A stretch of 30,175 nucleotides of DNA from Saccoglossus kowalevskii (lineage: Eukaryota; Hemichordata; Enteropneusta; Harrimaniidae): positions 197,945 through 228,119 of the forward strand of contig NW_003139324.1 of assembly GCF_000003605.2 (NCBI RefSeq), read 5' to 3'. Shown in pieces: positions 790 through 25,200 of this stretch. The notes below the pieces were generated by a model that was given only the letters and a program-made list of their open reading frames with translations, was not told the origin of the DNA and did not search any database. Position numbers and translations under genes: made by a program. How positions within the stretch are numbered: the stretch's first letter is position 1; each line of letters opens with the position of its first letter.

Positions 790-868
790 CTAAAAGTGTG
801 TTAGTCGCGGCCATGTATAAAACATAAACGGTGGAAGAAATTAAATTCGTTTGCCTTTATATTTACAG

Positions 869-2028
869 CACAGAAACTGGATCGCGTGGACGTGAGAGGG
901 TATACGGTCTGGTCGTTGATGGACAGCTTTGAATGGATGCATATGTACTCGGTTCGTTATGGGTTGTTTTACGTCAACCTAACCGATCCAGTGAGAACCA
1001 GAATGCCCCGGGCATCGGCGGAAAAATATGCGCAGATAATACAGACCAATGGATTCGTGAAACCGTCAAGGCGCGATGTTACCAAGCAACAAATAGCCCC
1101 GGAAGTAGTTAACGCTTCAATGCCACTGCAAACAAATCGAGGACCCTGGACGAAGGAAGACGATACTCAGGCTGGCGATAGAAGCGCCTCGCAACTGGTT
1201 ACCGTCTCCGTCCCTGGCGTGGAACGCATTCACCCACGGCCACCAATACCTAACATAACCGAGACGGTCTCACCACATTCTCCTCGGCAGGGGTTCTGGG
1301 AGAAAAAAGAAGCCGACGCCCCGAAATACGATTTGCTGAAAGTGGAAAAATCACCGGAGTCTCAAGAAGCACCTGTCTTAGGCCATCAGCCGATAAAGAA
1401 CGTCTTACCAAATTTCCCGAAGCCGAATAAGTATGATGGCAGACCAGCGCCAAAACCACAATCAACATTTTGGAATAAACCAGTCGACACCCTCTCAGAA
1501 ATGCAACACGCTCGACCATCATCCACAATGCAAAACGTTCGGCCAGTGGTCAACAGTATGCCGCCAATATCGCAAAATGTTCAGCTACGAAAGCAAAATA
1601 TACAGTCGCCTGTAGATAATATTCGCCTTCCAATACAGAATGTTCAACAGCCACTAGTGCAGAATGTCTTACCACAAATGGAAGAAGTTCGTCCACTGAC
1701 GAAAGTTGATCTGTCAAAGCCTGTAGATGTCCGAACACCATACGTGCCGGGTGGTCAGTGGCCAGACCGGGCACAGGACGTCCCTAAGACTCGCTTCGTC
1801 GACACCAAGTCTCCACAAAGTGCCGAGTCTCCCAAACCAGTTTACTGGGGAAAACCCCCAAGTCTCAGTGCAATGGAACATGAGAGTAAGCCATTATTTG
1901 TGGACACTCCTCGACTGACTATAGGACGCCCACCGATACGCAACGTCCAAGTCAAAGCGGAAAATGTGCAGGTCGGAATAAGCAAATGGGACGCCAATAA
2001 GCGAAGGATGGATCGGACAAGTTTATAA
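869..2028 (+). CDS. Glycoside hydrolase family 1 (Klotho/lactase/beta-glucosidase-like), last exon with long repeat-rich tail
   Basis: This is the 3'-terminal coding exon of a GH1 (TIM-barrel beta-glycosidase) gene; earlier exons lie left of the window. The exon follows a good acceptor (tttatatttacag, ending at 868); AG at 872-873 is an alternative. The first ~65 residues match the GH1 C-terminus: VRGYTVWSLMDSFEW, then YGLFYV, PRASAEKYAQII and NGF. The FEW motif corresponds to the conserved Glu-Trp that contacts the glycone in GH1 enzymes. The nucleophile motif (T/N)ENG would be in an earlier exon. After NGFVKPS the frame stays open for another ~320 residues rich in Pro, Gln, Asn and Val, with no transmembrane segment, until TAA at 2026-2028. 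The tail has recurring QNV-type words (KNVLP, QNVRP, QNVQL, QNIQS, DNIRL, QNVQQ, QNVLP, RNVQV, ENVQV) and aromatic words (FWEKK, FWNKP, YWGKP). Klotho-type proteins usually end in a membrane helix and short tail, so this end is odd. Family assignment is firm; the tail's function is unknown. Confidence 0.88.
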
Positions 2029-2960
2029 GATATAATTTCGCCTTGGGCATTGGGATGGTTCGCGCACCATTAGACATTCGTTGGCAAAACGGTGGTGTGT
2101 GTGGAAGGGAGTCGACACTGAACATTTTGAACAAAAAAATACAGAAAATATTAGAGAAACCACATTTATATAAAAAATGCATTTATGATTTGATAGAGAA
2201 AGGCAAAAACAAAATGTCAGCTACGTCGTCTTCGAAAAAATGGTTCGAAACAAAAATGAAAAATTATTTGTACACCTATCTTACCGGCAAGTTGTTAATG
2301 GCCAACCCATAAAGACGCCATCATTTTATTTTCACCCCCACCGTACTTATATATGTTGTTTGAAGCATTGCTGTTGTGAATTTGATTCTTTGTATAGTGT
2401 CTCGAAAGTCGTGTTTTTTTATGAGATGGGTACACGATGTGCTCAGATAATATGCATGTAGCAGGTGAAGCTGACCTCGACAAGTTGGCATCGGGGCTGA
2501 AAGTTACGGGTAAAACAGAAATGTTAGATTTAGTAGAGTGTATGTGATTGTGAATCGGCGTATGAACTTTGCTACACGCGTGTTTTATATCAATGTACAA
2601 TGATTCAGCATTGACCGTAGTTGACCAGATATGGATAGAATATAATAAGCAAACGACGTCGACGTTTAAATATAATGCATGATATTAATATGAATATGCG
2701 ACGTTGCTATGTGAGTGTGACATCTGGGGGGAGATTAGTACACTATGTTGTTATAATTCTTCAATAAGATCCTCGCACTCAATCATGAGAACAATAACAT
2801 AATATCTGTTCGTGGTTCATATACTAGTAGCTAGCTATTGTGGTATAAATACATGTGTAATGTTTCAATGGGATACTTATTAGTTTGGTTTGTAAATATT
2901 TTAAATAAGTTATTGTCAATTTGAAACTCATTGTATTAAAATAAAATAAATGATGTTTCA
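2029..2960 (+). other. Probable 3' UTR and polyadenylation signal of the GH1 gene
   Basis: No further coding signal is visible after the TAA. ATTAAA (2935-2940) and two overlapping AATAAA hexamers (2940-2945, 2945-2950) form the first strong poly(A) cluster, giving a 3' UTR of about 0.9 kb. Short open frames here are in AT-rich, non-conserved sequence. Confidence 0.5.
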
Positions 2961-6898: not shown

Positions 6899-7375
6899 TT
6901 TGGTCTGCTGTGAGGTGTAAAACCGGGCCAATTTCAATCTTTTTGAAGCTTTAATAGACGAAGTTGTTCCTGGTTGGAGAACGAATGTGACATTAATTAC
7001 GTAACGTCGTTGTTTTTTTCGAGTGTCTGTAAAAAATATCGGAAACTGGCAAGAAGTTCGCGAAGCTGACCTTCGGTACTCCGATGTTGTGAAGTGAGCC
7101 ACGTGAACTGAGCCTGTATATCTTATTGCACCTAGGACAGTTTGGTGTGTTAAGAGCTACGTTGAATCTCTGAGGTATTTTCTTCCCTTTGCCACGCGTC
7201 CGTTTTTTTTCTTGAACGTATTTCTTTCCATCTTTCCAGCATTGTTTTGCTTCAATGTTGACAAACTGAACATTGCGTCACACAGCTACAAGTACAGAGT
7301 ACTATAGAAACCGTTTACCCAACTAGATATTTAGTTAGTGTGTTGTTAATAATTTTTATCCGTGAGTTTGTCACT

Positions 7376-7660
7376 ATGGCTGATTTGGGAGACACAAAAG
7401 ACAAAGAACAGAATGTGGCGTCGACCTCTGCATCACCAATACCAGCAGTGACTGATCAAGAGAAGGAATTATCCAAAGAGTGCATCCACGATTTTGAGTC
7501 GAGGCAGTTCCTGCAATGTCTGGTGAAACTGAACAATCTGGCATCTTTGCGACCGACAGATTTCAAAGTGACACTCAATAAAGTAGTTGCGGATTTCCAC
7601 CAATCTTGCTGTACCAGAACAGATGAATTGAGAAAATCATTGCATAAAGTCTGTCAGCAG
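7376..7660 (+). CDS. CNOT10: CNOT10, CCR4-NOT complex subunit 10, first coding exon
   Basis: CNOT10 is a TPR-type scaffold that, with CNOT11, docks on the N-terminus of CNOT1 in the CCR4-NOT deadenylase complex. This exon encodes the N-terminal 95 residues. An acidic, Ser-rich leader is followed by VTDQEKELSKE, which matches the vertebrate start of the domain (ITDQEKELS). A pattern of helical spacing follows, with CLVKLNNLASLRPTDFKVTL and DELRKSLHKVCQQ aligning along their length to the known family from memory. The ATG at 7376 has a good Kozak context (A at -3, G at +4); an open stretch upstream in frame lacks an ATG. The exon ends CAGCAG|GTGGGT at 7660/7661 in phase 0. No downstream CNOT10 exon is recognised in the remaining 22.5 kb, so the gene is partial here. 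Identification is good but rests on remembered alignment. Confidence 0.85.
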
Positions 7661-7878
7661 GTGGGTACAACTTAAATTTAGCTTGCACCATAAAACCAGT
7701 CTGCTTGATATTACCATGGAACTACTACATGGTTTGTAGTTCCATGATATGACAAGTGATTGCTTGGTGTCAAATATACAAATTACTGATTGACCTGATT
7801 TGTTTATTGAGCTCATCATAGGTCGTATTCTACATTCTAAAGCACATACCGTCATACGCATGTCACAGAATCACCTGT
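7661..7878 (+). other. Start of CNOT10 intron 1
   Basis: AT-rich sequence follows the GTGGGT donor. Nothing coding is visible before the foldback element begins. The palindromic pair GGAACTACTACATGG / TTGTAGTTCCATG around 7718-7746 can form a small hairpin. Confidence 0.4.
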
Positions 7879-11038: not shown

Positions 11039-12345
11039 GTGCGTCCATGCATGCGTCTGAGCCTGTATCTTAGGCGTGCCTGGACCAATCGTATTCAAAC
11101 TTCACACTTACATCATGCATAATATTATACATATGCACATCAATTTGTTTCACGATCTGATTTAAGATGGCAGAAGGTGGCCATTTTTGTGCTAAAAATC
11201 ATCAAAATCAAACATTTATGGATTAGACATTATGGGTTCCTGATGCATGTCATTTTATTTTTCAGATCGGATTCAAAATAGCTGACTGGCGGCCATTTTG
11301 TTTTAATGAATGCACTTCTAGAGCCATATCTCTGACATGCTTTGACTGATTATGTTCAAATTTTATATATACGTTATACATCATAGTATAAATATATGAA
11401 TGTATTCACAATGGCCGACCATTGGCCATTTTGTTTTAATTAATGCTGTTCCAGAGCAATATTTCTCAATATGGACAAGTACTTATTTGACGATCAGATA
11501 CAAGATGTCAATCATTTTAATGTCATAACCAAGCATCATCTTCTGGATCCATATCTCTGACATGTTTATGTTCCAACAATATTACTATAAACAAAACTAT
11601 ATATCTTAAATTTGATAACTAACGAGGACTGTGCCATGCATGGTTTGTTAGTCCCCGTTCGGACGTACATGTAGTCCGAAAACGGGGACTTGTGTTTTGC
11701 CCTGTCCGTCCGTCCGTCCGTGATCACCTGTATCTCGAACATGCATGGACCGATTAAGTTCAAACTTCACTCATACATCACACATTATATGGGACATATG
11801 CACATGCATTTTTTTCATGATCCGATTAACGATGGCCGAATAGCGGCCATTTTAAGGCCGAAAATGCATCAAAATCGCATTTTTTCACCATTCCGGACCT
11901 GGATCTCAGTTATGCATGGACGGATTTTGTTCAAATTTGGTACATACATTAAACATAATAGGACCTTGATGCACGTCTTTTTTTTTTGGGATCAAGTTCG
12001 AAATGGCCGACTGGCGGCCATTTTGTTTAAAGAATTCAGTTCTGGATTCCGTATCCAAGACATGTCTGGATTGATCAAGTTCAAACTTCACATACACATG
12101 GTACATCATGTCACAAATAGATATGTGCATTTGTTTCATGATCTGCTTAACAATAGCGGAATGATGGCCATTTTAAGGCCGAAAATGCATCAAAATCACG
12201 TATTTTCACAATTCCAGAAGCGGATCTCAGTCATGCATGGATGGATTTTGTTCAGATTTAGCACAATGTGTTGTACATATGCAGGTGCATTTCGGTCATG
12301 ATCTGCTTTGAATGTATATGTCACTCAAATATGAACGGAACGGGG
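11039..12345. repeat. Diverged monomer repeats with ATGGCC...GGCCAT core and a terminal hairpin
   Basis: A unit of roughly 150-170 bp recurs. It has a 'catg.atggac.gatt..gttcaaa.tt' segment, then a 'gatggccga..ggcggccatttt' segment. GGCCATTTT cores are seen near 11189, 11290, 11430, 11843, 12014 and 12164. Each core is a partial palindrome (ATGGCCG / CGGCCAT). At 11650-11690 a hairpin pairs AGTCCCCGTTCGGAC with GTCCGAAAACGGGGACT around a 9-nt loop, followed by (GTCC)n. A related GAACGGGGAC lies near 12336-12346, so 11650-12345 may be one transposable unit with GTCCCCGTTC ends. The 203-codon plus-strand frame at 11690-12301 is made entirely of these units. Confidence 0.75.
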
Positions 12346-19200: not shown

Positions 19201-22200
19201 ACTGTTACTCAAGTACACATAGAGGGCTATAATAGTATTTTTATCTTTTGATTGTAAAATNNNNNNNNNNNNNNNNNNNNNNNNNNNNNNNNNNNNNNNN
19301 NNNNNNNNNNNNNNNNNNNNNNNNNNNNNNNNNNNNNNNNNNNNNNNNNNNNNNNNNNNNNNNNNNNNNNNNNNNNNNNNNNNNNNNNNNNNNNNNNNNN
19401 NNNNNNNNNNNNNNNNNNNNNNNNNNNNNNNNNNNNNNNNNNNNNNNNNNNNNNNNNNNNNNNNNNNNNNNNNNNNNNNNNNNNNNNNNNNNNNNNNNNN
19501 NNNNNNNNNNNNNNNNNNNNNNNNNNNNNNNNNNNNNNNNNNNNNNNNNNNNNNNNNNNNNNNNNNNNNNNNNNNNNNNNNNNNNNNNNNNNNNNNNNNN
19601 NNNNNNNNNNNNNNNNNNNNNNNNNNNNNNNNNNNNNNNNNNNNNNNNNNNNNNNNNNNNNNNNNNNNNNNNNNNNNNNNNNNNNNNNNNNNNNNNNNNN
19701 NNNNNNNNNNNNNNNNNNNNNNNNNNNNNNNNNNNNNNNNNNNNNNNNNNNNNNNNNNNNNNNNNNNNNNNNNNNNNNNNNNNNNNNNNNNNNNNNNNNN
19801 NNNNNNNNNNNNNNNNNNNNNNNNNNNNNNNNNNNNNNNNNNNNNNNNNNNNNNNNNNNNNNNNNNNNNNNNNNNNNNNNNNNNNNNNNNNNNNNNNNNN
19901 NNNNNNNNNNNNNNNNNNNNNNNNNNNNNNNNNNNNNNNNNNNNNNNNNNNNNNNNNNNNNNNNNNNNNNNNNNNNNNNNNNNNNNNNNNNNNNNNNNNN
20001 NNNNNNNNNNNNNNNNNNNNNNNNNNNNNNNNAAAAACCAGTGTTCGAACTAAAACGGTTATTGGCGCCCACGTTGCTGTACCTGCAACTACAATGCATT
20101 TGTCATAATCGCGCACTTTCAACGGGTGATTCTTGGTTGTAAAATCATAACACGGAACTCGCGTAGCATTGGGTGGATGCGCGTCTATACTGCAACAACA
20201 ACAACAACAACAACAACAGTTTCGAACATTATTGGATAAACGTTTCATTCTTTGTACAATACATTATATTGAAAAAGAGCTCTACCAGCCGAGACGCTGA
20301 ATTGTTTGAGTTACGGAAACATCGATTTACAAAATTGAACACGCCCATATTTTAGAAAAAATGCCCACTTTTGCGAAACAACTTCTACATTGTAACTCGA
20401 TGTTACTGCAAACATGCAACGGTAAACAAAAACAAACAACCTGTTTTGCCAACGTTACTTTAGATTTTGGTGGTAAGTGAAATTCCTGCTGCCGACTGCC
20501 AGTGTCATTGGTATTAGAACATGCAAATATTCTATACCCGCGACGTATCGACAATCAATCAATCAATGCAATCAACATACCATTTATTCACTTACATTAT
20601 AAGGACTCCCTTTGAACCAAACGGGTACGCGAGGCATCAACCTTTGGTGATTTTTTTTAAGAAGACAAACCCACCCCTTGAATCAAATCTACAAAAACAT
20701 ACCTTATTTCATAGTTGACACGAAATCACGTAGTTAATACTAGTACAATCGTCCAAAATCATGGTAAAAAGGGTCATTTGACCAATAAAAGAATGTGGTT
20801 CCTACTAGTGATCCCTGGTAAGAACGAAAAGTAAAAGCACAGGGGCTGTCACGTGGCACTCAAGAAGCCCATTCAAAGGATCGCGTCCAGACCGCGCTCA
20901 CTCTGAAAAAAAACATGGTGATACTACGCGACTATGACGGGAAGGGGGTAGTAGAAACCAGAGTGTATACATGACAATGTTAAGGTAAATGTGTAAACTC
21001 ACACCGTTTTTCTTATAACCGAACCTCAGATCGAACATGCCCGGCAAAGTGCCTGGATGACGTACGGCGATAGTTTTCATCATGAAAATGAAAACATTTG
21101 CACTCTTGTAAACATCACGCATAATATTATTTTACACTCGTTGTAACCGTCATCGTTGACTTAGCGAGTAGTAGTTTCGCTCCACTCAGGTGTTACTGGT
21201 AGTATAAAGGTCTGCACAGAGTACAGCAGTTATTTATTTGTATTCGTGTACATACGGTAGGTTTGAACAGGTCTACGGTTTGGCGTGTTATTTCCACTTC
21301 TCCGCTGTATGTTTTTGAACACATAGAAACTATTCACTTACGCAGGTCCGTAGTTGCACACCACCATATTATAGGCACCGCTATTGCTTGGACACTCAGC
21401 AACTCCACACCCTACTTCTTTAGAGCGTCCTGACACCACCTACATGTATTATAACGTGTATGATAGTCTCGTGTTGGAATGTTAACTCATTAGTTTTACT
21501 GAATCATAACGACGATCATGTCAAGTCACGCCGTTCATATTTTTGATATTTTTTTTTAGTCTGTTGCCAGTCAGTAAAAATGTAGCTTTTGGGTAATTTA
21601 CTATAGTAGTATTTTAAATGACGAACAACTAAACCACAGATAGAGTTGTCACGTCTACACTCAATATTTTAACATTGCAGAATCGATTTGTCGAGACCGA
21701 GATATTCACCATGGATCTTACCTGTGTGTAATGTCCACATTCCTTAGTGCATGTTATATTATCAAAATTATAGAATTCTTTTTCGGCAAACCACTGATCG
21801 AGGGCCGTCATTGCACTGAAAACATAAACGAAACATGTGTGAGTTGCGCCCTCCGGCGATCGCTACAGAAAACGCAATTGAGTTTCGTCAGCTGTCAATA
21901 TTTATTTTAAAGGATCGTGATTTAATGCCACTTCGTCGCTAATGCTACATTAAAATTAATATTGATTAATATTAAAATGTATATGAATTGTCTCTTACTT
22001 GAGGCCTGTGCCCTTTTTCATATTCTGGCCAATGATGGAATATGGTGGGTTTGATACTTCTGGTTGACCATGCTCCCAAACACATCTCTCGGCCCACGTC
22101 TGTGCCATATTGGCCAGCTCTTCGTGCCACATCTGATTAAAAATGCAGTAGAGGGGGAAATAGTTTCTCGAGAACCGATCAAGCAGACTTACTAAGCTGC

Positions 22201-25200
22201 ATATTAACTCAATATTCCGTTCAAATTGCGCCCCTAACACCGGAGCGCTTTTATGACGTAAACTGAATGGGTAAAACGAAGGCCATCGATGTCGTTTTGA
22301 TCCGTAGTTTACAATCAATAAAGAATTATGCTGAGTGACGAATGACTGTACAACAAAACATGGTGGTTGATTTGAAAGACATTGCTTTCACTCATATACG
22401 TCAATTTGACGTCATAGAAGCGCTACTCCACTAGAGGGCGCAACCACAGATAACAATTGTCTGTTATCTGTGGCGGGAAGTAATATGTTACTCGTAACTC
22501 CATATTGAATTTGGAAAGGATTGTGGGATAGAGGGGAGAGGGACTCGCATCTTATCCATAGAATCCTATGTTAAAAACAGCTTTTAGCTCTCCTGTTTTC
22601 AAGCAACGTGTTAAAAATTATGGTTATATTGTTGGACTTCCCAGTAATTTCACTGAGAAGATTGTTTTAAAGATTTTTTAGATTTTTTACAGTTTTTGGC
22701 AGCAAGCTATCTAACTGAAAACATCGATCTATCTTGCCTTGTTCAGATACAGAAAGCTGCCTAGTACTATGCAAATCAGATACGGACAAATGCCTAGTAA
22801 TATGCAAATCAGATACAGACAATTGCCCAGTACTATGCAAATCAGATACAGACAATACCTAGTACTATGTAAATCAGATACAGGCAAATGCCCATTACTA
22901 TGCAAATCAGATACAGGCAAATGCCTAGTACTATGCAAATCAGATACAGGCAAATGCCTAGTACTATGCAAATCAGATACAGACAAATGCCTAGTACTAT
23001 GCAAATCACATACAGGCAAATGCCTAGTACTATGCAAATCAGATACAGACAAATGCCTAGTACTGTGCAAATCAGATACAGAAAGCTACCTGGTACTACG
23101 CAAATCAGAAACGCAATACATAAAATTTGATTGCGTTTAAACCAGATTTCAACCCATAACTACAACAATAAAATTCATACTATTGTGATAGGTATTTTTG
23201 ATGGTTAAAAACCTTTCACTTAGGTAAGCGGGATTCGGTCGTTTCCACGCTAGGCTGTCAAAAGACACACACAAGCTTCGTTCATGTTCCCAAACGATTC
23301 TCTCCCAAGTCCCTGGTTTTCACCCGAGACAGCATTAAATCACTCTTTATTTCTTGTCACTCCTTAACCAATTACAATCAGTATAAGAGACTCCAAGGCC
23401 TTGCCTTCCAACAAACAACCAATCACATGAAAGTTTTACACATCATAATCAATTAATTACTCGTCAAACTATCTAGTAAAACACTACTATATATTGTCAA
23501 CACTAACTAATATTGATGGGGTAATAGTCTCGCACTAACATTCCACAAAGATACCGCCTTAGTTAGAATCGCAAACAAAATTGGTTTAGGATTACAGCTA
23601 CTGTATTGTATCTTAAAAACTGCAGAGTCATAAGATGTTTTTGGTTGATTTCGACCAGCTCGCCATCTGGTCTTGTCATTAACCTTTATCAGTATATGTT
23701 ATGGCAACCACTGTCAAACTGACTGAAATATAAATCATGACACTATAAAAGACAAAATAATTCTGACATTTTAACAGCTAAGTGTTATGTCTATACTATG
23801 TAGGGCAGACCATGTCGTGTCATACCATTAACTATATAGAGACAACAATATTAACGACGTATGGGTGCGATAGCAATTTATTATTATAAGTTAAAAAAAG
23901 ACAGGTTTAAGAATAATTGAGCTGACACCTTTGATGCGTGTTCAGTTTGGGGATTCAAGTTATTGAGAAAGTGTTATTTTTCCAAAGTTCCAGTCTAAGA
24001 CAGTACCATTGTTTATTTTCGACCCTGACCACTTGTGTAGCTGTATCAGGCTAAAATGCCGCCCACAGTAACTTAGGAACACGAGCGAATCCGATTAATG
24101 TCATCCACAGAAGTGCATGGTGAGCTTGGGCGATTCCGATTAATTCTGCCCTGCCATCAGTCAGTTCACAACACGAGCGAATCCGGTTATGAACTGTCTA
24201 TAGTAAGTTTGGCACACAAGCGAATTCGATTAAATTAAGAAAACGAGCGAATCCGATCATTACCATTCTCAGACAGTTCGGCACAGGAGCGATTACGGAA
24301 TCTGATTATTGCTGCGCTGATGCTGCCAACAGTAACTTCGGAACACGAACGAGCCCAACTGATTTCGCCCACAATAAGTTCGGAATACGAGCGAATCCGA
24401 TTAGTGTCGCCCAGTGATTTCGGAACACGAGCGAATCCGGCGCATGTTCATGCCTTCGAATACATCGCATAATCGTCTAAGTACAAATAAAGTAACCTCT
24501 AAGAGTGCAACTTAAGGATACGAGTCATCACTAAAAGTTCTGTTATATGGTGTCTATATGCCATAACACGTAGATATCGACAATAGACTTTATAATATAA
24601 CCGGGATCTTTGTTATCTCTAAAATATATCCAAAATTAACGTGGACAAATCAACAGCCGTTTTTTTTTCAGTCAAGGCAGTTTTGCTAATTTTATTTGAA
24701 CGGCTGAATGGTTTAATTGTACGTGATCAGCTGTCTCTCATAAATATATTCTGTAAACTGAGCACTACACGTTGAAATAAGTGTACATAGCAATGTCCGA
24801 GTATTGACAATTGTTGGGTTTTAAAGAGAGGAAAAATAATTGCGCGATGAGAAATGACACACATCCACCAATGGTATAATTATCTAAACAATTGAAATAT
24901 AGATAATCACAACATTACAGTCTTATGTAATTAAATAGTCTATTAGATGTTTGGAGAATCTATGGGTTTAAAACTAATTTCTTGTTCAATAAATTGTTTA
25001 TTTTTTTTACTGTTCGTTGTTTTTTAATGTACAACTGAAGACACGGATAAGACATGCAATACACTTACCATGGTCTGCATGTTGGAGGCCGGTGGCTCAA
25101 CCTGCCTTCTCAACTCATTGTGGCGATCAACGATCATCTGTATCTCATCGTCAGAGAATGGATGCCTTGACAGAATAGTTTGTCTTCGATCGCGAAGTAT

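Follow-up and report, generated by a model that had tools for sequence, protein, structure and literature searches.

The window considered here is a stretch of 30,175 nucleotides from the hemichordate Saccoglossus kowalevskii (C3051:197945-228119), and near its beginning lies the last exon of a gene of the GH1 family (window 869-2028). This exon encodes 63 GH1 residues and then runs on for 322 more codons to a stop. It begins directly after an AG acceptor at 867-868, in phase 1 as in its paralogues, and the open frame that holds it (window 805-2028) carries the GH1 end and the tail together. A sequence-only reading of this DNA had proposed that a single open exon joins the end of a GH1 domain to a tail of about 320 codons, and this is confirmed, the other five frames over the tail being interrupted by 8-15 stops each. 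Residues 4-62 of the exon protein (P0001) match positions 396-453, and only these, of the 453 positions of Pfam family PF00232, with 60.2 bits against a cut-off of 22.6 (E 1.6e-16). A second Pfam candidate, DUF7285, was rejected: it matches residues 48-114, across the border between GH1 and tail, at E 0.017 and with 16.2 bits, below its cut-off of 27, and the tail alone is unmatched. The features of the exon and its flank are collected in Table 1.

Table 1. The tailed GH1 exon and its probable 3' UTR in window coordinates; tail residues are counted from the first codon after the GH1 segment.
Feature	Position	Strand	Evidence
GH1 C-terminal segment (WSLMDSFEW ... NGFV)	869..1059	+	PF00232; acceptor phase; PDB matches of klotho-type GH1
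Tail, 322 codons (1060-2025) and stop, same exon	1060..2028	+	open frame; no Cys
Module 1: WTK (tail 30) ... PIPNI (62)	1147..1257	+	motif counts against shuffles; alignment A2
Long internal repeat, copy 1 (tail 78-182)	1291..1605	+	aligned to 1753-1971
Module 2: FWEK (tail 79) ... PIKNV (111)	1294..1404	+	motif counts against shuffles; alignment A2
Module 3: FWNKPVDTLSEMQH (tail 137) ... PISQNV (169)	1468..1581	+	repeat alignment; alignment A2
Array of 7-residue units, mostly [QD]N[VI]....	1531..1701	+	dyad spacing; lag 14 and lag 7
Short module: GGQW ... RFVDT ... KSP.S.E	1750..1842	+	aligns with tail 78-103
Long internal repeat, copy 2 (tail 232-304)	1753..1971	+	repeat alignment; motif counts
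Module 4: YWGKPPSLSAMEH (tail 262) ... PIRNV (292)	1843..1980	+	dyad spacing; alignment; motif counts
Probable 3' UTR; ATTAAA at 2935, AATAAA at 2945	2029..2950	+	pattern scan; UTR status inferred

Elsewhere in the window, a plus-strand frame at 7262-7675 resembles the first coding exon of what we take to be a CNOT10-like gene, with no Pfam match above cut-off, and a minus-strand frame at 21995-22387 resembles part of a CAP/CRISP domain at 14.9 bits, below the Pfam cut-off of 21.1. An open frame of 208 residues on the plus strand (11675-12301) contains internal repeats visible by eye (KMHQN..FS.F, SVMHG.ILF) and is perhaps a dispersed repeat. The minisatellite at 22743-23109 consists of 11.2 copies of a 33-base unit with 89% matches, and several frames across it are open; the long frames at 19261-20032 are artefacts of a run of 772 N. 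Outside the window, the mitochondrial contig of the genome (C4830, 17,037 bases) fits S. kowalevskii or a near relative. In its COX1, judged by conserved residues, ATA falls at Ile positions and the only AAA at a Lys position; AAA is frequent in other frames, with 16 AAA to 3 AAG in the longest. AGG is missing from COX1 and from the putative ND1, ND2, ND4, ND5, CYTB and COX2, COX1 is on the opposite strand, and ND2 comes before ND1. For S. kowalevskii, PMC3121625 describes AUA as Ile, AAA as Lys, no AGG, an inverted COX1 and a transposed ND1 or ND2.

Compared with animal GH1 proteins of the klotho, lactase and cytosolic beta-glucosidase type (PF00232), the window exon has the same invariant E-W and N-G positions and the splice phase of its paralogues. 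It differs from them in its 322-residue repeat tail and in reading DSFEW..MY where GH1 usually has DNFEW..GY, with N and G replaced. E21 and W22 are invariant in all 12 rows of an alignment of GH1 C termini (A1), and this Glu-Trp pair belongs to the substrate-binding D.FEW motif. Among the 60 of 169 PDB matches listed, the best chains for the GH1 segment are 8in1 beta-glucosidase, klotho, beta-klotho and cytosolic beta-glucosidase, and none of the 60 extends beyond query residue 71. The best match, 8in1 (994 residues, two matched GH1 stretches; E 2.7e-27), is like the window exon up to query residue 67, where its best stretch ends, and leaves the tail unmatched. Klotho and beta-klotho (7ysu, 5vak and others) are alike over the GH1 C-terminal segment at E 6e-15 to 9e-15.

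A search of the genome for GH1 returned at least 26 matches, comprising eight stop-free catalytic exons, two partial ones with internal stops, four smaller pieces and 12 C-terminal exons. All eight intact catalytic exons carry NEP and TE[NT]G; in GH1 the acid/base Glu lies in NEP and the nucleophile Glu in TENG. The window's contig carries four of the eight farther upstream, at 165-184 kb, and each of these is paired with a last exon. Read by eye, one splice phase is common to four paralogue donors (three on this contig and one on C2340) and 11 acceptors, and the N termini of the paralogues are hydrophobic in some cases and not in others. The window exon encodes 323 residues after NGF, compared with 1-45 after NGF or NGY in each of the other 11 C-terminal exons. 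The tail had been thought unusual for an animal GH1 protein, which fits both these short paralogue ends and the early end points of the PDB matches listed. Because an assembly gap directly in front of the window, a run of 8,911 N (C3051:189034-197944), hides the catalytic exon, the label "GH1 glycosidase" is taken from the C-terminal exon alone.

Over the tail, none of 5000 first-order Markov simulations stayed open. Its period-3 power of 4.34 is higher than in any of 2000 simulations (maximum 3.42) or any of 54 mostly non-coding windows (maximum 1.94), and lies near the values for two GH1 exons (4.96 and 6.99). Synonymous codon bias fails to single out the tail frame: its score is 0.014, whereas frame +1 scores 0.138 and one of the reverse frames 0.154; in 55 background windows this score has a mean of -0.080 and a maximum of 0.024. 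No strong splice donor was found within the tail, where the best candidate scores 1.73 on a hand-entered weight matrix that gives four paralogue donors 3.89-7.08. Judging from stop content and the period-3 signal the tail is coding, and it would presumably be translated. As read from the DNA, it is no reading-frame artefact but a genuine addition to a familiar enzyme family, and an uncommon one.

The tail is rich in proline (14.0%), as the sequence-only reading held; Gln (7.8%) and Asn (5.3%), which were named beside it, are outranked by Val at 10.2%, and Ser and Lys stand at 7.8% and 7.5%. Lys and Arg together number 46 against 33 Asp and Glu, Cys is absent, glycosylation sequons number two, and dibasic pairs are few. 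There is no hydrophobic anchor in the tail, whose best 19-residue hydropathy window reaches 0.21 before the frame stops; four of the six scorable paralogue tails, out of 11, end in hydrophobic stretches of 1.56-2.07 that look like GPI or membrane anchors. The charge-hydropathy index places the tail on the disordered side (0.403 against a boundary of 0.428), and its mean TOP-IDP is 0.22, compared with 0.05 in a GH1 exon. AlphaFold gave the tail alone a mean pLDDT of 47.8 and a pTM of 0.14, with no residue at 70 or above and no secondary structure, which is a weak test because it was run on one sequence. By the composition indices and AlphaFold, both weak guides, the tail is predicted to be an intrinsically disordered region.

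In searches for relatives, no Pfam family matched the tail within an E limit of 1, known CBM profiles included, and NCBIfam and PDB sequences yielded no relative; a profile of the four-module alignment described below gave no match in PDB. The disordered repeat tails and linkers of other extracellular enzymes are likewise Pro-rich, free of Cys and furnished with repeated short motifs, but no sequence kinship to them was found in Pfam, NCBIfam or PDB. In the literature on tailed GH1 or klotho proteins, on invertebrates, on Saccoglossus and on acorn-worm mucus, the gene and its tail are absent among the matches listed.

Within the tail, Trp occurs at residues 30, 80, 138, 234, 263 and 310, four times as W.K. 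The motif PI.N[VI] is found four times (at 62, 111, 191 and 292), in addition to PISQNV at 169, and the VDT words said to recur are present in three copies. None of 50,000 shuffles reaches four copies of PI.N[VI] and two of 20,000 reach three of VDT, for patterns that were chosen, as in all the motif counts given here, after inspecting the sequence. The positions of W.K and PI.N[VI] point to a repeating unit some 50 residues long, the module W.K ... PI.N[VI]. Four hand-picked module rows, aligned as A2, all keep W, K, P, I and N; the rows are 21-36% identical to the first. The PI.N[VI] motif and the order of the modules, like the gap that hides the catalytic exon, did not feature in the sequence-only reading. 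Its pair FWNKPVDTLSEMQH and YWGKPPSLSAMEH does align, but to share register the two need a gap of one residue.

The tail also contains a longer internal repeat. When residues 1-230 are compared with 231-322, the elements of tail 78-182 recur in unchanged order in 232-304. This alignment scores 75; with the second part shuffled the mean is 34, and in 2000 trials 75 is never attained. Taking the maximum over 22 split points, which allows for the choice of split, the best alignment scores 85, a value reached by one of 5000 whole shuffles (89) and none of 5000 local shuffles (maximum 82), with a Gumbel estimate of 2e-4. The best ungapped self-match of the tail is reached by six of 300 shuffles, and at the DNA level the exon has repeats of 14-22 bases that are 71-93% similar. 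A 57-residue period was discarded: when the best of 59 lags is taken, six of 3000 shuffles match it, which is not significant after correction.

An array of 7-residue units, multiplied copies of the module's last element, lies between modules 3 and 4, and two further units of this kind (RNVQVKA and ENVQVGI) belong to module 4. The earlier count of about nine QNV/QNI words at intervals of 8-11 residues did not hold: a strict count gives five, with ten N[VI] dyads in the tail against a shuffle mean of 2.4, and the spacing is 14, 7, 7, 7 and 8 in the core and 7 near the tail end. Taken over all of the tail, the 7-residue period is weak, with 115 of 3000 shuffles reaching lag 14 and 178 reaching lag 7. 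It stands out only in residues 151-232, a stretch chosen after the array had been seen, where none of 3000 shuffles equals the lag 14 signal and 15 equal that of lag 7. The expectation of disorder combined with internal repeats is borne out by the composition indices, AlphaFold, the motif counts and the repeat alignments.

The long repeat copies have a pS of 0.85, compared with a mean of 0.81 for random synonymous codons, of which 721 of 1000 sets lie at or below the observed value. Their pN is 0.44 against a mean of 0.50 for shuffled-codon alignments, and two of the 127 such alignments with at least 50 codons are as low; because shuffled-codon alignments also give low pN, this value alone is weak evidence. 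Units picked by motif have a pS of 0.82 and a pN of 0.35, and the contrast is smaller, 0.68 and 0.50, for those taken by register alone; the comparison of pN with pS is suggestive, but these controls weaken it. That synonymous sites are saturated and residues still match argues that the repeats are old and that the protein motif is what has lasted. The motifs of the tail have probably been kept at the protein level over a long time, and we infer that the tail is under selection.

The explanation we favour, and to which we attach even credence, is that this is the 3' end of a GH1-family gene in S. kowalevskii whose disordered tail of old repeats serves as a multivalent tether. Each module is proposed to be a short linear binding motif, and the flexible tail would keep the GH1 domain close to a matrix or some partner, both the tethering and the partner being guesses. 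The anatomy is what recommends a tether, because the tail is flexible, basic and without an anchor, and has several copies of one motif set; among the binding, matrix and crosslinking roles suggested earlier, a multivalent binding tether is our guess as to the best fit. A more specific proposal, on balance doubtful, is that a lineage-specific disordered scaffold tail, in which a 7-residue QNV array accompanies four or more W.K...PI.NV modules and whose motifs were kept until synonymous saturation, would make one GH1 copy a partner-recruited, multivalent enzyme or co-receptor.

The tail could instead be a weakly constrained extension, in which a stop was lost and downstream short-repeat sequence is now coding, translated and disordered, tolerated but of little function. 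We consider this unlikely, with real points in its favour. The tail is a single copy, having no other match below E 0.15 in its own genome (572 Mb), and has left no trace beside the paralogues, where tblastn on nine loci found nothing better than E 2.7 for remnants of the tail; the repeats are degenerate, and synonymous codon bias does not favour the tail frame. Set against these, the motifs match despite saturated synonymous sites, which is unexpected of a young or neutral sequence, and the frame is still open where the five others hold their stops. Four other genome matches to the tail, at E 0.15 to 1.8 from 10 candidates scored, bear on an origin in a transposon or minisatellite, which was rejected: these weak matches come from tandem arrays of contigs C2270 and C1648 that encode units resembling QNVTFPV or DNIGPAV, and they look unrelated.

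More improbable in our view is an orphan or alternative last exon, from which the tailed protein would be made rarely or never. Outside the gap, tblastn with four paralogue queries (L001, L002, L004 and L006) found no GH1 catalytic exon between the last upstream GH1 exon and the window exon, as expected of an orphan; yet the 8,911 N could contain one, and the acceptor, phase and GH1 end of the window exon appear intact. For an alternative exon there is a precedent at C2340:1065199-1065728 (L013 7199-7728), where a single GH1 catalytic exon precedes two complete last exons with 28 bases between them. Both have an acceptor and a stop of their own, and they share one phase. These are likely, from their arrangement, to be alternative last exons, and the second of them groups weakly with the window exon (81/88).

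A crosslinking matrix tail, in which transglutaminase joins Gln and Lys and so fixes the protein in mucus or extracellular matrix, strikes us as very doubtful. The 322 residues do include 25 Gln and 24 Lys and lack Cys, and there are two sites of the QxP-hydrophobic type that transglutaminase prefers; two, however, is all there are, and the invariant residues of the modules are W, K, P, I and N rather than Gln-Lys pairs. A membrane-anchored, klotho-like co-receptor end is scarcely credible, since the C-terminal transmembrane segment of the klotho family is absent from the window exon, which simply stops, even though klotho and beta-klotho are among the best PDB chains for the GH1 segment and the beta-klotho row (DGFEWQDAY) also deviates from DNFEW..GY where the window exon does.

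Animal GH1 proteins include both digestive enzymes and hormone co-receptors, the klothos. If the tether reading is true, a glycosidase domain would here have come to a binding role by another route, through a long disordered tail that carries motifs. The case would come from the hemichordates, which serve to infer early deuterostome biology.
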